Shown in pieces: positions 21,779 through 34,112 of a DNA stretch of 35,856 bases. The notes under the pieces were generated by a model, which was given only the letters and a program-made list of their open reading frames with translations, did no database searches and was not told where the DNA came from. Origin of the DNA: Myxococcales bacterium (lineage in GTDB: Bacteria; Myxococcota; B64-G9); contig JAAZNF010000118.1 in assembly GCA_012798435.1 (NCBI GenBank), positions 64,001-99,856 on the forward strand, read 5' to 3'. A program made the translations under genes and the position numbers. Within the stretch, counting starts at the first letter, position 1; the number at the start of each line of letters is the position of its first letter.

Positions 21779-21803
21779 TCTGAGTCAGCGCGTTTGAAGA
21801 GAA

Positions 21804-21837
21804 AGCCCTCCCGGAGCGATCCGGGAGGGCTTTTTTT
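21804..21837 (+). terminator. Strong intrinsic terminator
   Basis: Perfect 12-bp stem AGCCCTCCCGGA / TCCGGGAGGGCT closed by a GCGA (GNRA) tetraloop and followed by a run of T, 25 bp after the lipoprotein stop. It is the clearest terminator in the window. Confidence 0.95.
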
Positions 21838-21899
21838 CTGCCACTCTTCGACGGTTCAGCAAAACCGGCTGTCAACCAGCCGCGCCTTGCATCACCCGA

Positions 21900-22070
21900 T
21901 TCCTCAAACAGGAAGAGCATGCCTGCATGCTCTTCATATCAGCGGATTTTGCCGAAGCTCGGCCGACGTCAAGGGAGAGCGGAGCGAATCCCGTAGGGAC
22001 CGGAGCGGGCTTTACCGCGAAGGCCCGTGACGGCGTAGGCCGAGCGGAGGGTACGCCTGCCAGCGTGACC
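21900..22070 (-). repeat. Structured interspersed repeat, copy 1
   Basis: About 171 bp, read on minus. The outer stem is GCTCGGCC / GGCCGAGC (plus coordinates 22038-22045 and 21957-21964), perfect 8 bp. The next stem is CGTCACGGG / CCCTTGACG with one mismatch. An inner hairpin has a TAC loop (TCCC/GGGA), and a terminal palindrome GAAGAGCATGC / GCATGCTCTTC lies at 21912-21935. Copies 2 and 3 share the order of these parts with different bases in the stems. It lies between the terminator of the Cys-repeat gene and the promoter of the next gene. Confidence 0.85.
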
Positions 22071-22114
22071 ATGAGACGACTGCATCGAGAGGTGGCCAGG
22101 GGGCGCCGTCGCCG

Positions 22115-22143
22115 TTGCCTTCGGACAAGAGTTGCCGCATACT
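22115..22143 (+). promoter_or_regulatory. Candidate promoter of the predicted beta-barrel gene
   Basis: TTGCCT (22115-22120), 17-bp spacer, CATACT (22138-22143), followed by ATG at 22165. The leader would be about 15 nt, which still includes the GGGAGGTG ribosome site. Confidence 0.4.
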
Positions 22144-22164
22144 GCGCTGCCTGGGAGGTGCCCG

Positions 22165-23031
22165 ATGCGCTCGACCATCCTGGCGCTTCTTGGCGCGTTG
22201 ATCCTCGCCGCGCCCGCCGCGGCGGACGAGGTATCGCTCTCGTACTGGTATTTCCCCACGCCCTGGACCATGAGCGCGCCGCTGGCCCCGGCGCGCACGG
22301 GAGGGATCGATCTCGGCGTCACCGCCTCGGACACCGGCTGGGCCATGGCCTTTCCGATCTGGACCACCATGACCAGCCGCAAGATGAACTTCATCGTGGA
22401 CTTCGCCTGGCCGTTCGCGGTGGGCCACGTGAAGGGCGGTGACAGCTCGCCGGACTTCTACGCCGGGAACTTCCGGCTCGGCCTCCGCGGTGGCTGGAAG
22501 TTCACCTTCCCGTTCGCGGGCGGGTACGCGTTGCCCGCGGCCTGGGGCATCGGCGGCGACATCGGCATCCCGGTGGCCTCGATCTGGGGCTCCAACGAGG
22601 CGGCCGCCATGGGCTACCTCATGTTTCTGCACGACCCGCTGGCCTGGCTGCCCAACATCTTCGGTTTCAGCCCCAAGGCCACCTTCGCGCTGGGAAGGCC
22701 CATCTTCTTCCTGGAGAACGAGCTGCAGTTCCCCATCCTTTTCGGGGTCAAGTCGGGAGCGAAGTCCATCGTCGACCTCAAGTGGGGCGCCGCGCTGGGG
22801 AGCCAACCGATCTCCTGGGCCGCCTTCCTGCTCGAGTTCGGCGGCATCCACGGGCTCAACCAGAAGGGCAACCAGACCTGGTGCGCGGTCGGGGCGCGCT
22901 TCTACTACAAGCAAATGGTGGCGGGCCTGATGATGCGCTTCCCCTTCTCCTACGTCGCCAGCTCCTCCGAGCCCGCCTGGGGCCTGCTCCTCTCGGTCGG
23001 CTTCGAAAAGCGCCAGCCGCAGGAGTTCTGA
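22165..23031 (+). CDS. Exported protein, predicted outer-membrane beta-barrel
   Basis: I do not recognise a named family. The 288-residue product has a clean signal peptide (MRSTILALLGALILAAPAAA, cleaved before DEVS). The mature chain alternates short amphipathic strands rich in Trp, Phe and Gly: SYWYFPTPWTM, AFPIWTTMT, FIVDFAWPF, FRLGLRGGWKFTFPF, YALPAAWGIGGDIGIP, ARFYYKQMVAGLMMRFPF, and it ends in an aromatic-rich strand (AWGLLLSVGFEKR). This fits a small barrel of 10-12 strands. ATG 22165 has a GGGAGGTG site. The gene is flanked on both sides by copies of the structured repeat in the same orientation. Its GC content is like the neighbours, so transfer is not evident. Confidence 0.75.
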   Translation: MRSTILALLGALILAAPAAADEVSLSYWYFPTPWTMSAPLAPARTGGIDLGVTASDTGWAMAFPIWTTMTSRKMNFIVDFAWPFAVGHVKGGDSSPDFYAGNFRLGLRGGWKFTFPFAGGYALPAAWGIGGDIGIPVASIWGSNEAAAMGYLMFLHDPLAWLPNIFGFSPKATFALGRPIFFLENELQFPILFGVKSGAKSIVDLKWGAALGSQPISWAAFLLEFGGIHGLNQKGNQTWCAVGARFYYKQMVAGLMMRFPFSYVASSSEPAWGLLLSVGFEKRQPQEF

Positions 23032-23167
23032 CCTCGCCACTTCTTTCCCATTCGTCTGATCGCGCTGGTTCCCGAGGGTTCGCGACCAGGTGCCAAGGTC
23101 GAGTAGGCGTCTGGCCGCGCTTGCTTTGGCGGCATCGCGGCCAGCCGTACAAGAAGCTCATGGCGTG

Positions 23168-23340
23168 TTCCTCAAGCGGGAAGAGCATGTCTGCATACTC
23201 TTCATGATAGCGATTTCAGCCGAAGCCCGACCACCGTCAAGGGAGAGCGAAGCGAATCCCGCGCGGACCGGAGCGGGCTTTGCCGCGAAGGCCCTTGACG
23301 GCACAGGCCGAGCGGAGGCTACGCCAGGAAACGGGTGACC
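23168..23340 (-). repeat. Structured interspersed repeat, copy 2
   Basis: About 173 bp, read on minus and clearly homologous to copy 1 over its whole length. The inner long stem is perfect (CCGTCAAGGG 23234-23243 with CCCTTGACGG 23292-23301). The outer stem (23225-23232 with 23306-23313) contains two positions that pair as G-T only when read on minus. The terminal palindrome (23180-23203) has one such wobble, again only on minus. It lies downstream of the beta-barrel gene. Confidence 0.85.
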
Positions 23341-23388
23341 CAGGACAGCCGTTGTAGAGGGGGAACCAAAGCTAGAGAGAACAATGAT

Positions 23389-23430
23389 CTGGCGAGGTGG
23401 GGTTTCAAAGGGGCGAAGCCCCCTCGCCAG
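23389..23430 (-). other. Hairpin downstream of the 410-residue lipoprotein gene
   Basis: CTGGCGAGG (23389-23397) pairs with CCTCGCCAG (23422-23430), with a further GGG/CCC after a bulged T. It lies 34 bp past the stop of the minus-strand gene at 23464, where a terminator would be expected. No T-tract follows on minus, so it is only a possible Rho-independent-like or 3'-end-protecting element. The rest of the 23032-23463 gap holds repeat copy 2. Confidence 0.4.
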
Positions 23431-23463
23431 CATCCCATTTTCCTTGTGCCCGGACGGTGCGGC

Positions 23464-24696
23464 TCAGCGGTCCGCCGGCTCGGTGCGCCGATCCAGGAGC
23501 TTGCCGTCGGGGGAGACCAGCACGGTCACGAGGTCCAGGCGCGTGCCGCCGTCGAGCGGGACGCGCCGGTAGAACTTGGCGATGAGGTTGCGCCCGTGTG
23601 GCAGGACCGGGAGCGGCAGACGGTTTACCTTTTTCGAGTAGGCTGGTTCGCCCGGAAGGTCGAAGATCACGGCGGGCTCATACGCGGGCGGCGCGGCCAG
23701 CACCACCTCGTCGCGCTGGGAGCCGAGGCCCGTGCGGCGAAACACCAGCCGCCCGTCCGGGAGGAACAGCGGGGCGCAGCCCTGCCCGAGCTCGCGGGTA
23801 TTCGCGTCCTCCATGAGGATGAGCCGCCCGTCGGAAAAGGCCGCGGCGAAGAGCCGCCCGTCGGACGAAAACGCGTGGGAGAGCGCCGCCGCCGCCGCGG
23901 CCAGCAGCCGCCGCTTGCCGAAGTCTTTCTCGACCAGCCAGTAGTCCCAGCGGCAGCCGTCCTCGCGGCACCCGAGCGGGACGCCCAGCAACGCGCGCGT
24001 GCCATGAGGGGAGGGGAAGGCGTTGTACTCCACCAGCAGCCGGGCCGCGGGCAGGTAGCGCTCTCCACCGTCCGTCTGAACCCGAAAGTACGGCTCGCCC
24101 TCGGCCGGGGCCCGGCCCGTCACCTCGAGGAAGGCGCCGTCGGCGGCCTCGCCGTCCGTGGGGGAATCCCGGTCCGGGCGCGTAAGCAGGGGCACCGCGG
24201 CGCCGCTCATCCCCGAGAGCACCCTTCCCGCGGCCGGGCCGTCGAGATCGTTGGCCGCCGGGGTGAAGCGATCGTGGCGGTACGGCCGTTCGACGATGAG
24301 CGGGGAGAGCTCCGCCCGGCGCAGCGCGGCGGCCAGGGCCTCGGCGAACTCCCGCCGGGCGAATTTCCCCGCCACCACCGCGAAGCCCTCGGCGCCTGAT
24401 ACGAAGGCCCGCGCCTGGTCGATCCCCGGCCAGCCGGCCGCGAGCGCGCCCGTCTTCTCGGCCCGCCTGGCGATCTCCGCCGCCTGCGGAAGGTCCCGGG
24501 CCTGGCCGGCCAGCACGCACAGGAGCTTCTCCGGTACGCGCTCGTCCGGCGGCTCCACGAAGGGACCCGCGGGGCCGGGGAGGGCGGCGGCAGGGAGGGC
24601 AGCGGCGCCGGCGTCTGGAGAAGAAGACGGAGCGGACGGCTTCTGGCAGGCGGCCACCAGCAGCAACCCGCACAGCATCCAGAGAGCTCTTTTCAT
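23464..24696 (-). CDS. Lipoprotein with a possible SPOR-like segment and SH3-like region
   Basis: The 410-residue product has a lipobox LVAACQ (Cys17) and an Ala/Pro-rich linker to about residue 50. Residues about 55-140 alternate helices and strands (EKLLCVLAGQARDLPQAAEI, EGFAVVAGKFARREFAEALA, LSPLIVERPY) in a way that recalls a SPOR-type peptidoglycan-binding fold. A later part (VPLLTRPDRDSPTD to VQTDGGERYLPAARLLVEYN) resembles bacterial SH3 domains, and the C-terminal half has propeller-like SSDGRL, SDGRLIL, LPDGRLVF turns. All are weak assignments made by eye. ATG 24696 is chosen over a TTG at 24717 because it starts the signal peptide directly. It is transcribed away from the hydrolase gene. 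Confidence 0.7.
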   Translation of the reverse strand: MKRALWMLCGLLLVAACQKPSAPSSSPDAGAAALPAAALPGPAGPFVEPPDERVPEKLLCVLAGQARDLPQAAEIARRAEKTGALAAGWPGIDQARAFVSGAEGFAVVAGKFARREFAEALAAALRRAELSPLIVERPYRHDRFTPAANDLDGPAAGRVLSGMSGAAVPLLTRPDRDSPTDGEAADGAFLEVTGRAPAEGEPYFRVQTDGGERYLPAARLLVEYNAFPSPHGTRALLGVPLGCREDGCRWDYWLVEKDFGKRRLLAAAAAALSHAFSSDGRLFAAAFSDGRLILMEDANTRELGQGCAPLFLPDGRLVFRRTGLGSQRDEVVLAAPPAYEPAVIFDLPGEPAYSKKVNRLPLPVLPHGRNLIAKFYRRVPLDGGTRLDLVTVLVSPDGKLLDRRTEPADR

Positions 24697-24741
24697 GGGG
24701 CCAGAGTGCCTTCTCAATCCGCAAGAGTCAACCGCGCGAGT

Positions 24742-24769
24742 TTGTGTATGGCCGGCTCTCTGCTATGAT
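24742..24769 (+). promoter_or_regulatory. Candidate promoter of the hydrolase gene
   Basis: TTGTGT (24742-24747), 16-bp spacer, TATGAT (24764-24769). The -10 box is good (5 of 6) and the -35 box is weak. The perfect inverted repeat ATGATGC-G-GCATCAT (24765-24779) overlaps the -10 box and start site. Confidence 0.45.
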
Positions 24770-24779
24770 GCGGCATCAT
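24765..24779. promoter_or_regulatory. Inverted repeat at the hydrolase promoter
   Basis: A 15-nt perfect inverted repeat, 7-bp arms around a single G, placed over the -10/+1 region. Position and symmetry suit a repressor site. No linked regulator gene is present in the window. Confidence 0.4.
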
Positions 24780-24795
24780 CGCGAAAGGTGTCCCC

Positions 24796-25674
24796 ATGGA
24801 CGCGTACTTCGAGACCACCATCGAGTCCTTCGACAAGACCCGCATCTGGTACCGGCGCATGGGCAGCGGCGCGCTCACCCTGATGCTGTGCGACGGGGTG
24901 GGCTGCGACGGCTACGTGTGGAAGTACCTCATCCCCTACTTCGAGGGGCGCTACCGGCTCATCCACTGGAACTACCGCGGTCACGGCCGTAGCGGCCCGC
25001 CGGCGGAGCCGGACCGGCTGGGCATCGAGGAGTGCGCCGAGGACCTCATGGCGGTGATGGACCACGCCGGCGTCGATGAGCCTGCGGTGCTGCTCGGCCA
25101 CAGCATGGGGGTCCAGGTCATCCTGGAGTTCGTGCACCGCTGGCCCGAGCGGGTGCGCGCGCTCGTGCCTCTCACCGGCTCCTACGGCAAGGCGGTGGAC
25201 CACGTCCACGACGCCGACTGGCTGAAGAAGCTGTTCCCCCTCATCCGCGAAGCGGGGGTGCGTTTCGGCCGGCAGCTCCAGCCCTTGCTGCGCGAGCTGT
25301 TCCGCTCGGAGTTCGCCTTCTGGTACGCGCGCAAGTTCGAGATCAACGAGTCGCTGATCCGGCGCGAGGACTTCTTTCCGTACCTCGAGCACCTGAGCCG
25401 CATGGACCCGGTGATCTTCCTCAAGACCCTGGAGGGGGCCGCCCGCCACACCGCCGAGCCGTACCTGCCCGAGATCCGGGTGCCCACCCTCATCGTGGCC
25501 GGCACGCACGATCGCTTCACCCCGTACTGGCTCTCCCAGCGCATGCACGCCCTCATCCCCGGTTCGGAGCTGCTCACGCTCCCGCTGGGCAGCCACACCG
25601 CGCCCATCGAGCTGCCCGAGCTGGTCAACCTGCGCATCGAGCGTTTCCTGCGCGAGCTCGAAGCGAAGAAGTGA
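24796..25674 (+). CDS. Alpha/beta hydrolase
   Basis: A cytoplasmic 292-residue alpha/beta-hydrolase-fold protein with a full catalytic triad: nucleophile Ser103 in GHSMG, acid Asp239 in GTHDRFTP, and His267 in LGSHTAP. The oxyanion region is LCDGVGCDGYVWK (residues 31-43), where the family often has HG. NYRGHGRSGPP (59-69) is the usual loop after strand 4. There is no signal peptide. The fold covers esterases, lipases, haloperoxidases and C-C bond hydrolases, so the substrate is open. ATG 24796 has an AAAGGTG site. It is one of the few non-envelope genes in this half of the window and is monocistronic. Confidence 0.92.
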   Translation: MDAYFETTIESFDKTRIWYRRMGSGALTLMLCDGVGCDGYVWKYLIPYFEGRYRLIHWNYRGHGRSGPPAEPDRLGIEECAEDLMAVMDHAGVDEPAVLLGHSMGVQVILEFVHRWPERVRALVPLTGSYGKAVDHVHDADWLKKLFPLIREAGVRFGRQLQPLLRELFRSEFAFWYARKFEINESLIRREDFFPYLEHLSRMDPVIFLKTLEGAARHTAEPYLPEIRVPTLIVAGTHDRFTPYWLSQRMHALIPGSELLTLPLGSHTAPIELPELVNLRIERFLRELEAKK

Positions 25675-25719
25675 GCGGCCGCCGGACCGCGACGAGACCC
25701 GCCTGACGCGCCGCGCCTT

Positions 25720-25843
25720 GCCTCCGCCCGACCTGTGCTGTCAATGGCCTCCGGTCGCTACGCGACTCGCTGCGCTCGCCATTGACAGCGGTCGGGCTTC
25801 GGCTGGAGCTGCAATGATAAGGAGCATGCAGGCATGCTCCTCG
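25720..25843 (+). repeat. Structured interspersed repeat, copy 3 (opposite orientation)
   Basis: About 124 bp, read on plus. Outer stem GCCCGACC (25726-25733) with GGTCGGGC (25790-25797); long stem CTGTCAATGGC (25738-25748) with GCCATTGACAG (25778-25788), perfect 11 bp; inner hairpin GTCGC-TAC-GCGAC (25754-25766); terminal palindrome AGGAGCATGC / GCATGCTCCT (25820-25841). It matches the reverse complement of copies 1 and 2 but lacks about 16 nt of their loop. Stem bases differ from those copies in pairs, so base pairing is kept. Confidence 0.85.
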
Positions 25844-25857
25844 TCCTGAAAGAGTGC

Positions 25858-26055
25858 ATCCAGTTTTTTCATTTTTCTTGGTAGCAGGGTATCTCTGAAT
25901 TTTCCCTCGGCAGGAGGTTTTCTCCGGGTTTTTCTCCGGGCCTTTCCTTATTGGCAGGTTTTTGGGGGGGTGTTTGCCGGAGAGTCCACGGGGGCGGAGC
26001 CCCGTTGCTCAAAGGTGCGCGCCGCGATCGATCGACGAAAGGTTCGCCGAGACGT
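25858..26055. other. T-rich, low-GC intergenic stretch with no gene seen
   Basis: Unlike the surrounding sequence, 25862-25975 is rich in T runs and contains the near-tandem unit TTTTCTCCGGG twice (25919-25940), then a run of seven G. At 25989-26006 ACGGGG/CCCCGT forms a 6-bp stem. The stretch lies downstream of both flanking genes, so it may act in transcript termination. I see no coding frame with a plausible start and no transposon ends. Confidence 0.4.
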
Positions 26056-29000
26056 TCAGGGCGTGACGGTGAGGCTGCCGGCCTGAGCGGTCTGGTAACC
26101 GTTGCTCGAACTGTCGAGATCGCAGAAGGTGAACCAGAATCCGCCGTCGTCGGAGAAGCGGTAGGCGTAGCTGTAGCTCCCGGCCGTGGACAGGTTGAGC
26201 ACACGCATGAACTCGTCGTTGTTGCCGCAATCCGGGCAGGAGGGGTTCCACTCGGCATCGGCCCAGCGCCAGCCCGGGGTGGTGCGCGGGTCGCTGCCGG
26301 TCGGGCCGTAGCCGAGCTGGCCGGTGATGCCCGCGGGCGGGCCGGCGGGTTCGGTGACGCCGTCCTTCCAGACCCGGCCGAAGATGAGCGGGGTGTTCAC
26401 GTTGACCGGGACGCTGGCCGAGGGCGGGTGTTGCAGGTTGCACCAGCCGAAGCTCACCGCGGCCTCCCCGGTGTAGCGGTAGGCGGCGGCGAGCGTCTTG
26501 GTGTTCGGCCCCTTGGTCACGCTCACGTCGTAGTCGCCCGGGCTCTGGGCCGGCGTCAGGCACGAGAGATGGCTTCCGTCGATGACGCTCACCCCGGTGC
26601 AGGCCAGGGTGCCGATGCGCACGGTCACCGTAGCGTCGAAGCCCGCCCCGGTGATGGTGATGGTCTCGCCACCCTGACGGATGCCGAGCCGCGGGTTCAC
26701 GTCCAGGATGGCCAGGGCCCCCGCGCAGGAGGGGTTGAGCTGGCCCGGGGTGCCGAAGTCGCCCCCGGGGAGCTGGTAGGCCGACTGGTTGGGGGTGCTG
26801 CACCAGTTGGCGCCGGTGTCGTTGCCCGAGATGGAGTAGGCGGCCGGGTCGAGGTTCATGGCCCGGCCCTGGGTGCGCGGCCAGCCGGTATAGTTGTACA
26901 CCACCCGGTCGATCTCGAAGTCGTCGAGCGTGGCGATGATCTCATCGGGGTTGGTGTCGCCGCTGGGGGGGTTGGCCAGAGTGAAGTTGTCGTAGTCGAA
27001 GTCGCAGATCACCCCACCGTTCAGGCTCGAATTGCCGTTGATGCACAACACCGCCGCCCGGTTGGGCTGGATGACGATGTCGGCGGTCACGGTGAAACTG
27101 TCGGCCGGCGAGTTGAGGTCGCGGAAGCGGAAGGAGCGCAAGTTGACGGGGTGGCTCCAGACGTTGGTCACCTCGAAGTACTCGCCGGCGGTGTCGGCCA
27201 CCACGGCCGGATCGTACATGACCTCGCTGATGATGATCGCGCCCGCCGGGATGAGGCCCTCGTCCACCAGCCCGTCGCAGTCGTTATCCGAGGCATCCTG
27301 GAGCTCGCTGGCGCCGGGGTGGGAGTCGGGGTTCCCATCGTCACAGTCGTTCCCGCCGCAGGCGACGTCGCGATAACCGTCGCCGTCCAGGTCCTTGTCG
27401 TTGGCCGTGCCCGAGCAGTCCTCGTCGAGGGCGTTGCCGCACACCTCGGGGCCGTAGGCGTTGTTGTGGAACAGGTAGTCGGCCGCCTCGCACGGGTCCC
27501 AGGTGCCGCCCTGGCACTGGGCCGGCCGGTGCAGCGATCCGGCGCATACGCCCTGCTGGAGCTCGCAGAGGGCGATCTGCAACGTCGAATCGGCGCCGTC
27601 GATGGCGTTGTCGCAGTCGTTGTCCACCCCGTCGCACACCTCTTGCCGGCCGGGGTGGATCAGCGGGTCGGTGTCGTTGCAGTCCTGACAGCCGCCGGGG
27701 CAGATGGCGGGAGGCGTGGCGGCGCAGGTCATGTTGCGATCGCAATACCCGTCGTTGTCGTCGTTGCAGCCCTCGTCGACCTGGTTGTTACCGTTGTTGT
27801 CGGAGCCGTCGCAGATCTCGGGTGTGCCGCCGTAGCCGCGCGCCGGGACGGTGAGGCTCGGCGCGTCGCGATCGCTGGTGCTGGCCGCCACCGCCGCGGT
27901 GCGTTCCCCCGCCGCCTGCGGTGTGAAGTGGACCTGCGCGGTGAGCACCTGGCCCGCAGCGAGGCTCGCCGGCAACGGCCGGCTGAGGTTCTGCAGCGAG
28001 AAGTCGGGGTTCGAGCCGGAGCCCATGCCCAGGGTATGCACGATCAGGGTGCCGAACCCGGTGTTGCTCACCGTCACAGAAACCGGCGGAGCGGCGCTGC
28101 CGACCGGTACGGCGCCGAAGTCGATGGAGGCGGGCGCGATCCGGGCCTCGGGGTTGGTGCCGACGCCCGAGAGGGTGAGGCGGGCGACGGGCCGTACCGG
28201 ATCGTTGGAGGTGAACTCCACCGCCCCGTTGTCGGAGCCGGTGGGTGCGAGCGGGGCGTAGCGCACGTCGAGGCGCGCGCTCTGCCCCGGCGACAGGGTC
28301 CCCAGGCTGCTGACCGACACGGAGAAGTCGGCCGGGGTCTGGGCGTCCACCGCCACCCGGCTCACGGTGAGATCGCTCCCGCCGGCGTTGCCCACCGTGA
28401 CGGAGCGGGTGTCCTCCTCGGCGAGCTGGACCTCGCCGAAGTCGAGGGTGGCCGGGTTGAGCGAGATGATGGGAGGCTGGGCCGCCGAGCCCCGCACGTC
28501 CACCCGGATGGGATCGTTCGGATCGTCGGAGCGGATCTCGAGGACGTCCGCGAACGAGGCGGCTTGGGTGGGCGAGAAGCGGACGCTCACCGTGGTCGCG
28601 GCCTGCGGGGCGAGCGAGAAGCTCTGCTGCCCGTGCGTGTCCAGGGCGAACGGCGCGGCGCCGGTGACCAGGTGGATGGCGCTCACCTGCACCGCCTGGC
28701 CGCCGAGGTTTTGCAGGGTCACGTCCTGCGAGACGGTCTCGCCCAGGTAGCGCCGGCCGAAGTCGACGGGGTTCGGCGTGACCGTCAGGTTCGGCTGGAC
28801 CCCCTCGCCGGCGATGGCGATGATGCGCGGGCGCTCGTCGCCGTCACTCTCGTCGGACGCGATGACGATGCTCTCTACCACCGCGCCGGTGGACTGGGGG
28901 ACGTAGCGGATCTTCAGCGAGACCGTGTCCTTGACCGCGCCGGCGCCGTCGCGGCAGGCGCCCTGGACGCAATAGAAGAGCGAGCCGCACTCCTCGTCCG

Positions 29001-29883
29001 TCGTGCAGGGATCGCCGTCGGGGCTGAGGAAGGCCGGCGGGGCGGGGTGGGCCTCGAGGGCGAAGTGCACCGAGGCGCGGGGCTCGGTGCGGACTTCTGA
29101 GATCGAGAGGACCGCGTTGCCCGTGCCCACGTTCTTGATGAACAGCTCGCGCTCGGCGCTGCCGCCGACCGGGATGCGGCCGAAGTCCAGCCGCTCCACC
29201 TCGGGTTGATCGGTGGCCGGATCGACCACCACGGCGATCTCCGAGGAGCCTTTGTAGGAGGAAGACAGCGGCACCCGCAGCAGCGCCTCGTCCGGGTCGT
29301 TGGAGGCCACCAGCAGGGCGCCCGTGTCCGCCTGGCCGTCGCTGGGCCGGTAGCGAATCACCACGCTGGTGGACTCGCCGGCGGCGACGCGCACGTCCAC
29401 GTTGCCGAGCGGCGTGGCCGAGAACTCCGGGCTGGTGCCCGTCTCGAGTTGGAGCGAGTAGATGCGAAGCTCCGCAGAGCCGGTGTTCGAAAGGCGCAGC
29501 GTCTGCTCGACCTCCTGGCCGATGCGGGCGTTGCCGAACTCGAGGCTCTCGGGTTCGGCGGCGATGTCGGGAAGCTCTGCCCCGTCGCCGCCGCCGTCCG
29601 CCCCGTCTCCGTCCGACCCGCCGTCCCCGCCGTCTCCATCCGGGCCGCCGACGCAGCGGCCGCCCTGGCACGACTGCCCGGCCGGGCAATCCTGGTCGAT
29701 CCGGCAGCGGTTGCCGCCATCGGGAAAGGACGCGCACAGCCCGTCGTCGCAGAACTGGCCCAGCGGGCAGTCGTTGTCCGACGTGCAGGTGACGATCCCC
29801 GAGTCGGTGATGCTGGTGCTCTCGGAGCAGCCGCTGGCCAACGCCGCCAGCAGGAAAAGCGGGAGGATCCGGTACGTCTTCAT
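26056..29883 (-). CDS. Giant lipoprotein: five ASH-like domains, MopE-type repeats, lamin-tail-like and IPT/TIG domains
   Basis: The 1275-residue product has a lipobox ALASGC (Cys19), two Dickkopf-like modules (33-50, 60-77) and a Gly/Asp linker. Five ASH/HYDIN-type domains follow (about 106-215, 227-362, 364-466, 472-575, 579-684), each with the FG and SNDP/SDDP landmarks. The second has a Cys module inserted (291-311). Next come MopE-type metal-binding repeats (689-875: VCDGVDNDCDNAIDG, DCDDGNPDSHPGASE), a lamin-tail-like domain (878-1030, ISEVMYDP, EYFEVTN), an IPT/TIG domain (1059-1137, GGETITITGAGF) and an unassigned C-terminal domain with CPDCGNNDEF. It is very probably surface-exposed and binds Ca or another metal. 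ATG 29883 has a GAGGTG site. A TAGTAT -10-like box lies 32 nt upstream. Confidence 0.92.
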   Translation of the reverse strand: MKTYRILPLFLLAALASGCSESTSITDSGIVTCTSDNDCPLGQFCDDGLCASFPDGGNRCRIDQDCPAGQSCQGGRCVGGPDGDGGDGGSDGDGADGGGDGAELPDIAAEPESLEFGNARIGQEVEQTLRLSNTGSAELRIYSLQLETGTSPEFSATPLGNVDVRVAAGESTSVVIRYRPSDGQADTGALLVASNDPDEALLRVPLSSSYKGSSEIAVVVDPATDQPEVERLDFGRIPVGGSAERELFIKNVGTGNAVLSISEVRTEPRASVHFALEAHPAPPAFLSPDGDPCTTDEECGSLFYCVQGACRDGAGAVKDTVSLKIRYVPQSTGAVVESIVIASDESDGDERPRIIAIAGEGVQPNLTVTPNPVDFGRRYLGETVSQDVTLQNLGGQAVQVSAIHLVTGAAPFALDTHGQQSFSLAPQAATTVSVRFSPTQAASFADVLEIRSDDPNDPIRVDVRGSAAQPPIISLNPATLDFGEVQLAEEDTRSVTVGNAGGSDLTVSRVAVDAQTPADFSVSVSSLGTLSPGQSARLDVRYAPLAPTGSDNGAVEFTSNDPVRPVARLTLSGVGTNPEARIAPASIDFGAVPVGSAAPPVSVTVSNTGFGTLIVHTLGMGSGSNPDFSLQNLSRPLPASLAAGQVLTAQVHFTPQAAGERTAAVAASTSDRDAPSLTVPARGYGGTPEICDGSDNNGNNQVDEGCNDDNDGYCDRNMTCAATPPAICPGGCQDCNDTDPLIHPGRQEVCDGVDNDCDNAIDGADSTLQIALCELQQGVCAGSLHRPAQCQGGTWDPCEAADYLFHNNAYGPEVCGNALDEDCSGTANDKDLDGDGYRDVACGGNDCDDGNPDSHPGASELQDASDNDCDGLVDEGLIPAGAIIISEVMYDPAVVADTAGEYFEVTNVWSHPVNLRSFRFRDLNSPADSFTVTADIVIQPNRAAVLCINGNSSLNGGVICDFDYDNFTLANPPSGDTNPDEIIATLDDFEIDRVVYNYTGWPRTQGRAMNLDPAAYSISGNDTGANWCSTPNQSAYQLPGGDFGTPGQLNPSCAGALAILDVNPRLGIRQGGETITITGAGFDATVTVRIGTLACTGVSVIDGSHLSCLTPAQSPGDYDVSVTKGPNTKTLAAAYRYTGEAAVSFGWCNLQHPPSASVPVNVNTPLIFGRVWKDGVTEPAGPPAGITGQLGYGPTGSDPRTTPGWRWADAEWNPSCPDCGNNDEFMRVLNLSTAGSYSYAYRFSDDGGFWFTFCDLDSSSNGYQTAQAGSLTVTP

Positions 29884-29967: not shown

Positions 29968-30103
29968 CCTGGCACGCCGCGAACGGGTAGCCGGAGGCGC
30001 GGCTGCCTACCGGCGAGTCCTCTTAGTTGCTCGCCGCCGAGCCGGCTCCGCTACATAGAGGACTCGCCTGGCGCGCCGCGAACGGGTGGCCGGAGACGCG
30101 GCT
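29968..30103. repeat. 136-bp direct repeat, left copy
   Basis: Identical to 30257-30392 except for one base (A at 29974, G at 30263). It starts and ends with a variant of the same 37-bp block (29968-30004 and 30067-30103), each able to form a GCCG/CGGC hairpin. The middle is a 12-bp perfect stem GGCGAGTCCTCT (30012-30023) with AGAGGACTCGCC (30057-30068), whose loop holds a smaller hairpin GCTCG-CCGC-CGAGC. It lies upstream of the giant lipoprotein gene. Confidence 0.92.
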
Positions 30104-30256
30104 GTAAAACGTTGTGCGCCGCAATGTCTGCATGGTGGCGGCCGCGTAGCCGACCGGGGGCCCACCGCCGCCGCGCAGGGTCCCCCCGAGCAGCGCCGGG
30201 GGTGGTCGGCGTTAAACAGGCCGCGATGAGAGCAATTTGTGCGGCGCAATTTCGTG
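30104..30256. other. Foldable spacer between the two 136-bp repeats
   Basis: 153 bp with no gene seen. TGCGCCGC (30115-30122) can pair with GCGGCGCA (30241-30248), and GCCGACC (30149-30155) with GGTCGGC (30204-30210), nested inside. The nested pairing suggests a structured unit rather than random spacer. Confidence 0.45.
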
Positions 30257-30392
30257 CCTGGCGCGCCGCGAACGGGTAGCCGGAGGCGCGGCTGCCTACC
30301 GGCGAGTCCTCTTAGTTGCTCGCCGCCGAGCCGGCTCCGCTACATAGAGGACTCGCCTGGCGCGCCGCGAACGGGTGGCCGGAGACGCGGCT
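30257..30392. repeat. 136-bp direct repeat, right copy
   Basis: Second copy, offset by exactly 289 bp from the left one. Its 12-bp stem is at 30301-30312 and 30346-30357. It ends 16 bp before the stop of the CAP-domain gene, so it would lie in that gene's 3' untranslated region. Confidence 0.92.
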
Positions 30393-32363: not shown

Positions 32364-33329
32364 ATGGCTCGAATTTTTCTTTGGGCTTTCTGTCTGGTAC
32401 TTGCCGTCAGCGCGATTCCGGCGTGCGGCGGAGGTTCGGAGCACGGCCCGCAAATCTACGTCGATCGCAACGTGCGCGCCATCACCGGCATCCCGGTGTC
32501 AGCGGTGGTCGATCCGCGCTGCAAGAAGGGCGACAACAACACCTGCAACCCGGCCTGCTCGGCCGGCACCTTCTGCGCGAAGGACCCCGACGACAACGAG
32601 GCCAAGTGCGCGCCGGACTGCAATCCGGCCTGTGGCACCGTCGACCACTGCGTTTGCAAGGCTGGCACCGGCTGCACCCAGACCGAGTGCGTCGCCGACA
32701 CCTGCGATCCGGCGACCCTGATCTGCGTCACCCCCGACCCGGCCCAGAACTTCTACACCGGCCACTGCCGCCAGTGCCGCAGCGACGCCAACTGCCAGGC
32801 GGGCTTCTCCTGCGATCACGGCTGGTGCCACAAGACCTGCACGACCAGCAGCGACTGCGACGGGGTGGCCTATTGCTCGCCGGGTGGGCCGTGCTTCTGT
32901 ACGGCCGGGTTCTGCCGCCTGCCGGCCAACTCGGTGGACATCACCCTGACGAACAAGGGGGATCGCGACCTGGAGATCTACACCGATCAGGTCGCCCTGC
33001 ACGGCCACGACGACGCCTGCTCCTTCCATCTCGGGCGGATGCTGTGGAGCCCCTCGGAGCCGACCATCCGGCTGACCCCCAACGGCACGGCCTTCATGCG
33101 GCTGCGCTTCACGCCACCCGAGGCGGGGGCGTTCCGAGCCCTGCTCACCATCCCCAACAACGATCCGGATCCGCTGCGCCAGAACCTGCCCTTCATGCTG
33201 TGCGGCCAGGCGGTGGAGTACATCTGCGACGACGGCAAGGACGTGCGCTGCCCCGACCATATGAGCTGTGACGCCAAGGATTTCGAGGGGTTCGAGACGC
33301 TGACCCCCGACTGCAGCGCCTTCCAGTAG
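32364..33329 (+). CDS. Cys-rich lipoprotein with C-terminal ASH-like domain
   Basis: The 321-residue product has a lipobox IPACGG (Cys21). Residues about 50-190 are cysteine-rich with Dickkopf-like and related modules (CNPACSAGTFC, CRQCRSDANCQAGFSC, CTTSSDCDGVAYC). Residues about 200-300 resemble a single ASH domain (VDITLTNKGDRDLEIYTD, FMRLRFTPPEAGAFRALLTI, NNDPDP), as in the giant protein at 26056. The C-terminus is Cys/Asp-rich (YICDDGKDVRCPDHMSC). ATG 32364 has an AGGAGG site. It is divergent from the CAP-domain gene. The similar module set suggests these proteins share an assembly or surface. Confidence 0.85.
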   Translation: MARIFLWAFCLVLAVSAIPACGGGSEHGPQIYVDRNVRAITGIPVSAVVDPRCKKGDNNTCNPACSAGTFCAKDPDDNEAKCAPDCNPACGTVDHCVCKAGTGCTQTECVADTCDPATLICVTPDPAQNFYTGHCRQCRSDANCQAGFSCDHGWCHKTCTTSSDCDGVAYCSPGGPCFCTAGFCRLPANSVDITLTNKGDRDLEIYTDQVALHGHDDACSFHLGRMLWSPSEPTIRLTPNGTAFMRLRFTPPEAGAFRALLTIPNNDPDPLRQNLPFMLCGQAVEYICDDGKDVRCPDHMSCDAKDFEGFETLTPDCSAFQ

Positions 33330-33415: not shown

Positions 33416-33540
33416 GCCTCCGCCCGGCCTGTGCTATCAAGAGTGGGCCGGTATCTCGGGGATTCTCGGGTGCTGACCCTGGACAGCGATCGGGCTTCGG
33501 CAGGAGCCGCTACCCAGAGAGGCATGCCCGCCGGCTCCTC
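33416..33540 (+). repeat. Structured interspersed repeat, copy 4 (decayed)
   Basis: Shares the opening block (GCCTCCGCCCG, then CCTGTGCT and TCAA) and the closing block (GACAGCG, TCGGGCTTCGGC, GGAGC) with copy 3, but the middle is unrelated and the long stem and terminal palindrome no longer pair well. It lies in the 33330-33641 gap, which otherwise holds nothing I can name. Confidence 0.6.
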
Positions 33541-33641
33541 CGGGTCCAGGAAGATCTCGCGGATAGCCTCCGCGGAGAGGAGAACGCGAAGTCGGCTTTC
33601 GACGCCGAGAGGGGGAGAGGTGAACGCGCGCCAGATCGGGG

Positions 33642-34112
33642 CTAGGGCGGCAGGGCGTCTTCCAGGGTGCAGTCGAAGCGCGCGGTGAGGAAGCGGCCGT
33701 TGTCGAACTTGAAGCCGCACTTGCCCTTGAGGGGTTTGGCCACCTCGTCGCCGCCCTCCTTGATCTCGCACTTGCCATCGACCATCGTGGGCCAGCCGCC
33801 GGCACCCTCGGCGATGATGACGCGGTCGAAGAGATCCGGCGGGACGATGACCTGTCCCTCGATCTTGTCCGTGCCGGGGAACTCCATCGACAAGCGCGCG
33901 GTCCACTGCCGCCCGGCGTCCTCCACGATCAGGTAGTGGACCACGATGGCCCGCGGGGTGCTGCCCATCTGCGGGTAGTAATCGCACTCGATGCGGTTGT
34001 AGTCGCAGCTGCGCAGATCGCACTCCGAGCCCTCCAGGGCCCGCTCGCTGCCGCAGCCCAGGCCGGCGAGGGCGAGCGAGATGGTCAGGAGCAAAAGCGG
34101 ATATCGAAGCAA
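33642..34112 (-). CDS. Small lipoprotein of unknown function
   Basis: I do not recognise a family. The 156-residue product has a lipobox LAGLGC (Cys20) followed by GSERA. The mature part has a Cys-rich start (SECDLRSCDYNRIECDYY) and a beta-rich body (AIVVHYLIVEDAGRQWTARL, IEGQVIVPPDLFDRVIIAEG, CGFKFDNGRFLTARFDC). The start is TTG at 34112: it has a perfect AAGGAGGT site 5 nt upstream and begins the signal peptide, while the longer frame to 34685 runs inside the neighbouring gene. It starts 32 bp after the stop of the 503-residue lipoprotein gene, so the two form an operon. Confidence 0.75.
   Translation of the reverse strand: MLRYPLLLLTISLALAGLGCGSERALEGSECDLRSCDYNRIECDYYPQMGSTPRAIVVHYLIVEDAGRQWTARLSMEFPGTDKIEGQVIVPPDLFDRVIIAEGAGGWPTMVDGKCEIKEGGDEVAKPLKGKCGFKFDNGRFLTARFDCTLEDALPP

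Follow-up and report, generated by a model that had tools for sequence, protein, structure and literature searches.

The element described here appears to be a non-autonomous palindromic repeat of ~141 nt that is dispersed as DNA and resembles REPs and BIMEs in its habitat and behaviour (a reading to which we give a probability of roughly 0.75), and about 60–70 copies of it are present in one bacterial lineage. It most probably represents parasitic mobile DNA and not a new regulatory RNA, and no earlier description of this repeat family was found. The evidence comes from the window, by which we mean the whole analysed stretch of 35,856 nucleotides (contig 49, positions 64001-99856), and from the genome to which it belongs (5,045,266 bases, 5.05 Mb, in 129 contigs).

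Copies, distribution and anatomy of the repeat

Four copies lie in the window (Table 1). The original prediction had noted three, all of which are real, but had missed the fourth, degenerate one. As it had stated, copies 1 and 2 are homologous and in the same orientation (85% identity across 158 nt, both on the + strand) and copy 3 matches them on the reverse strand, at ~77% identity; its reading of the gene at 22165 as a beta-barrel gene, on the other hand, was left without any supporting Pfam match. A blastn search of copy 2 against its own genome gave 45 matches. The covariance-model search that had been proposed confirmed that the family is real: a model (R1) built from an alignment of 29 copies, which when folded displayed double changes in 13 of 36 pairs, retrieved 76 matches at E<=0.01 from the own genome, 66 of these at E<1e-6. 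Alignment of 62 R1 matches, one copy being represented by two rows, left 61 distinct rows; the closest pair of distinct copies is 94% identical and the median pair 73%. Chance is excluded as the origin of the family because of the ~66 genomic copies together with the shuffle and slide controls described below.

Table 1. Copies of the repeat in the window, their settings and the adjoining modules (window coordinates)
Feature	Position	Strand	Description
Copy 1	21894-22051	+	cmsearch 131.0 bits, E 9.6e-27; 158 nt including an extra 18-nt inner segment
Copy 1 palindromes	5′ palindrome about 21913-21934; long palindrome 21951-22051	+	
Copy 2	23162-23319	+	cmsearch 128.3 bits
Copy 2 palindromes	5′ palindrome about 23181-23202; long palindrome 23219-23319	+	
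Copy 2 end	23319-23322		CTAC (GTAG on the − strand)
Copy 2 setting			between convergent genes 22165-23031 (+) and 23464-24678 (−)
Copy 3	25720-25860	−	cmsearch 151.3 bits; best preserved copy in the window
Copy 3 palindromes	5′ palindrome 25820-25841; long palindrome 25720-25803	−	
Copy 3 setting			between convergent genes 24796-25674 (+) and 26056-29883 (−)
Copy 4	33416-33558	−	degenerate; cmsearch 67.2 bits, E 3.8e-13; genome place C49:97416-97558
Copy 4 setting			between convergent genes 32472-33329 (+) and 33642-34094 (−)
Module A	23110-23144	+	separate hairpin repeat CTGGCCGCG...CGCGGCCAG; abuts the 5′ side of copy 2
Module B	25861-25990	−	purine-rich tract (GGAGAAAACCTGC..AAGGAAA repeated) on the 5′ side of copy 3

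The further copies that had been anticipated are thus found in the own genome but not in related ones: no match at E<=1e-4 was obtained in the remaining 8 genomes from the class (which all belong to the same family) or in 194 other genomes of the phylum, the latter scanned with stricter filters under which the own genome was still readily found. A degenerate pattern run against 84,980 GTDB species hit two unrelated bacteria (Streptomyces and Phaeospirillum), which were rejected as relatives and taken as chance, the best reaching 8 bits with no convincing model match. Viral contigs, plasmids and phages contained no copies, Rfam gave no match in the window, and a permissive scan of 21850-25900 returned chance-level hits only. 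The repeat is lineage-restricted, the restriction being established against other species only, as the collections scanned may lack records of this species.

From 5′ to 3′ the element consists of a short tract, often CTTCCT..AGGAAG, a 5′ palindrome (GAGGAGCATGC-CT-GCATGCTCCTC, also written GAGGAGCATGCCTGCATGCTCCTC), a spacer of ~16 nt and a long imperfect palindrome of about 84-100 nt (GCC-GNA-GCYCGRCC-GCYGTCAAGGG ... CCCTTGACRGC-nnn-GGYCGRGC-GGA-GGC), tipped by one or two small hairpins, most of them with a GNA triloop. In the tip hairpin GTCSC-GNA-GSGAC the central pair is G-C in 33 copies and C-G in 19. An extra segment of ~18 nt, present in some copies including 1 and 2, could form a second small hairpin, which is clearest at locus L013 (GCGGGC-GAA-GCCCGC). 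On the reverse strand the long palindrome starts with a degenerate GTAG-like tag; exact GTAG is the commonest end tetranucleotide (22/58), and the last three positions of the tetranucleotide are T in 50, A in 44 and G in 57 of the 58 copies. When folded as RNA, copies 1 and 2 are barely better than shuffled sequences (z -1.1 and -1.4), whereas copy 3 reaches z -5.8; folded as DNA, copy 3 gives z of about -5.8 and -5.2 on the two strands. A protein-coding reading was considered, the 5′ half being open as ...EEHACMLL..AEARPxSR... in many copies, yet it was ruled out by indels that break the frame, by the lack of a shared start and by a TGA that most copies have at one and the same place in the stem.

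Covariation of the stems

The compensatory stem changes on which the original prediction was built are present in the stems it quoted, and they are genuine. In the 61 distinct rows, 95.0% of stem cells are standard pairs compared with 88.8% in 500 shuffles; the value of 95.0% is inflated by the fitting of the alignment to the model, the same pairs appearing nonetheless in the earlier MAFFT alignment. Changes on both sides were found in 18 of the 36 pairs (9.1 in the shuffles) and doubly changed cells numbered 169 (58.1 in the shuffles); no shuffle among the 500 came up to these numbers, and the signal vanished once the partner was displaced by 1-3 columns. Stem sites vary at 12% and loop sites at 28%. 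There are fewer independent events than the cell counts suggest, because several of the covarying pairs change together as two haplotypes: the two main forms of GCYCGRCC (CCCGACC or CTCGGCT) represent three linked pairs (columns 73, 76 and 78), and hybrid copies combine one arm from each. The covarying columns 21, 81 and 107 combine freely with the linked three, and 50 haplotypes occur in the 61 copies. A tree-based count of compensatory events gave Fitch counts close to those for shuffled labels, so that the tree is uninformative.

It could be that the paired changes were produced by a mutational process, either template switching in a quasi-palindrome, by which one arm is copied onto the other, or recombination between subfamilies that swaps stems, and not by selection, a possibility that we take seriously while giving it well under even odds. 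It concerns the cause of the covariation and is compatible with the reading as a mobile repeat. Both the joint change of columns 73, 76 and 78 and the hybrids with one arm of each haplotype would be expected from such a process, and template switching in DNA can create paired changes and is documented to make multibase compensatory ones (PMC8794818). However, the free combination of columns 21, 81 and 107, with the resulting diversity of haplotypes, and the persistence of pairing in stems while loops diverge twice as fast argue against it, and it would explain how pairs change rather than why the family spread.

Genomic habitat and relation to known palindromic repeats

As judged with our own simple codon-usage gene caller, no copy lies inside a predicted gene. 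The 62 copies with both neighbours occupy 29 convergent, 30 co-directional and 3 divergent spacers, against a baseline of 40 convergent, 190 co-directional and 84 divergent over 836 kb (spacers >50 bp), so that convergent spacers are in excess (p 9e-9) and divergent ones depleted (p 5e-5); with spacers >200 bp only, the corresponding values are p 5e-6 and p 4e-7.

The intergenic part of the genome is repeat-rich and mosaic, the main repeat being intermixed with other repeat families. Module A has 37 genomic matches, many of them far from any main-repeat copy. The tract of module B adjoins a GGGGC..GCCCC hairpin (also given as GGGGGC) and related tracts precede other copies; several copies share upstream homology to about -150, and module B also stands alone elsewhere. 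A different interspersed repeat, module C, forms a tandem pair in the window (29968-30102 and 30204-30391) and recurs elsewhere in the genome as well as beside some main-repeat copies. Short GGGGC-GNA-GCCCC intergenic hairpins are located at 23411-23430 and about 25990-26010, and similar ones are found next to repeat copies. Among the genes of the window, that at 26056-29883 (−) encodes a protein of 1275 aa that combines ASH/HYDIN-type Ig domains and MopE metal-binding motifs with a TIG and a lamin tail domain.

REPs are situated mainly between convergent and unidirectional genes and have GTAG tags and complementary stem changes (PMC3733652, PMC2817692); selection for complementary mutations has been noted in them (PMC2817692), which makes covariation a known REP hallmark. 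Like the GTAG REPs (Di Nocera 2013, PMC3733652; Nunvar 2010, PMC2817692), the element is an imperfect palindrome whose stems differ between subfamilies by complementary changes, with a GTAG-like tag beside the stem, and it forms a lineage-specific family of many dispersed intergenic copies that are extragenic and prefer convergent and co-directional spacers (29 + 30 of 62 here). Unlike REPs, which are 20-40 bp long, it has 141 nt and two palindromes, and its copies are single instead of head-to-head dimers. The tag is also less conserved, which may count against the REP reading: GTAG is found in >90% of members of most GTAG REP families, whereas it is exact in 38% of the copies here, a TAG-like core being frequent. 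Furthermore, no REPtron arrangement was seen in the sequence around the two Y1 transposase genes detected: both are cut by contig ends and have a different palindrome upstream, a result that is provisional. Because habitat, tag, stem changes and species specificity match while length, tag conservation and RAYT linkage do not, we regard the element as REP-like without filing it as a REP; it seems to be a new relative of the REP palindromes, and an unusually large one.

With BIMEs the element shares the occurrence of intergenic mosaics in which several repeat modules stand side by side. BIMEs, however, are alternating inverted REPs, whereas the modules here look mutually unrelated and the copies are single, the two closest in the window sharing one orientation and standing 1268 nt apart on either side of a gene. 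The Rickettsia palindromic elements, ERIC, NEMIS, Correia and SMAG, compared by description, are likewise interspersed palindromes, comparable in length to the present element or shorter; several of them are inserted within genes or end in inverted repeats with TA targets, neither of which was seen here. A REP/BIME-like mobile repeat is the best-fitting of the three options initially offered, given the dispersal, the intergenic location, the convergent bias, the GTAG-like tag and the confinement to one lineage, and the other two, a small RNA and an mRNA-end element, gained no support.

The candidate enzymes in this genome are two Y1 transposase fragments that weakly resemble the RAYT model (best E 9e-5, which does not reach the model's cut-off). 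The palindrome upstream of them, TCCGGATTT...AAATCCGGA, is present at 22 places, almost all of them near a contig end, and the Y1 elements are near-identical multi-copy transposons that probably broke the assembly. No model match to the main repeat was found in the flanks examined near the two Y1 genes, the far sides of which are missing from the assembly. In one Y1 family the sequence GGGGACAG is present, in agreement with the GGGGWSAS motif that has been described for TIRYT genes (PMC3733652). Two families of near-identical Y1 (RAYT/TIRYT-like) transposons end many contigs (L138, L139, L141-L160; for example contigs C3, C36, C68, C71, C72, C75 and C125). Outside the left edge of the Y1 transposon, GGTTCCACCCACCCCGGTTT (L141, L142, L147, L153, L160), two to three tandem, locus-specific copies of the flank are followed by GGTTCC, as in CCAGCTTCGGGTTCCAGCTTCGGGTTCC and CCCCAACCGGTTCCCCAACCGGTTCC, which as a target duplication would be unusual for a Y1 transposon. 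The single reverse transcriptase (L140, C45:779-1471; 492 aa, RVT_1 E 8e-38, group-II-intron-like by eye) has no link to the repeat and was rejected as a partner.

Mobilisation of the repeat in trans by the Y1 enzymes is possible but unsupported. As in TIRYT/TIRtron and RAYT transposons (Y1/HUH), the two multi-copy Y1 transposons of the genome could act on single-stranded hairpins; the palindrome of these transposons, however, is the one given above and not the main repeat. An unlikely reading is that the element is the remnant of a composite hairpin transposon of a new class, with two palindromes in ~140 nt and a GTAG-like guide, moved in trans by a TIRYT-type Y1/HUH enzyme that has a different palindrome. 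If this were true, Y1/HUH enzymes could amplify structured DNA unlike their own ends.

The constrained strand and the proposed mode of spread

In a selected transcript one would expect G.U to be tolerated above A.C. Mismatched stem cells of the repeat comprise 53 G.T and 51 A.C (p 0.92), and this equality indicates that pairing is not constrained on one RNA strand in particular; stems of 13 tRNAs from the same genome contain 22 G.T and 0 A.C, a control biased by the tRNA finder, which itself disfavours A.C. Copy 2 is an instance of the symmetry: the intermediate G-T pairs ascribed to it read as C.A and A.C when taken on the + strand (GCCCGACC/GGCCGAGC), where they are mismatches, and as G.T on the − strand only. 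A structured family with real paired changes is supported, but selection on base pairing, as originally inferred, was too strong a statement for an RNA, in view of these mismatch counts and of the capacity of template switching to yield paired changes. The constraint would rather have acted on DNA, in source copies, with the resident copies decaying neutrally. The parity of G.T and A.C could also reflect neutral decay alone, and would then be compatible with an RNA function of a few well-preserved copies.

The strong covariation would in principle also fit a structured RNA, i.e. a small RNA or an mRNA 3′-end element (a stabiliser or a signal for processing or termination) in which selection on the transcript maintains the pairing, and both the GNA triloops and the GNA/GNA internal loop would be in keeping with an RNA. 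We nevertheless find this quite improbable. Although 49 of 64 copies are downstream of a same-direction gene, this sense excess arises from the convergent spacers, where it is automatic, and a 3′-UTR bias was rejected as it is not significant without them, the co-directional spacers holding 18 sense and 12 antisense copies (p 0.36). Further points against an RNA, besides the equality of G.T and A.C, are the lack of an Rfam match, the lineage restriction, the absence of a tie to any gene class in the window, and the position of copy 1 beyond what reads as an intrinsic-terminator-like hairpin with a T run (about 21802-21837), which follows the upstream gene (end 21778). A MITE of an undetected DDE-type insertion sequence would likewise be non-coding, short, dispersed and lineage-restricted, but is very unlikely given that the element is internally palindromic and that neither terminal inverted repeats joining the ends nor target duplications were visible in the aligned copies and flanks. 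Least probable is a bidirectional terminator module spread and kept for insulating convergent genes, since, despite the convergent enrichment, most copies lack a T run after the hairpins on either strand and several have separate terminator-like hairpins beside them (copy 1; loci e11, e23 and e47).

For the REP/BIME-like mobile repeat that we favour, one can envisage that the element folds as single-stranded DNA, on the lagging-strand template or as a cruciform, and that a putative trans-acting transposase recognises hairpin and tag. New copies would be inserted into spacers on the downstream side of genes, sites at which they can be tolerated. Source copies that remain active would have to keep their palindromes, which would lead to paired changes between subfamilies, and individual copies might then decay neutrally, so that pairs would be broken equally on either strand. 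Against mobility, no empty site, target duplication or defined transposed unit was seen, and the length of the shared flank differs from one pair of similar copies to another.

When their stems covary, dispersed repeats are easily mistaken for new structured RNAs, and counting G.T versus A.C mismatches is a simple test that helps to separate a strand-specific RNA constraint from a palindrome constraint at the DNA level. If mobility were shown, the REP kind would be extended to larger, two-palindrome elements in a poorly sampled lineage, and the question would be raised as to which enzyme moves REPs that have no cognate RAYT.
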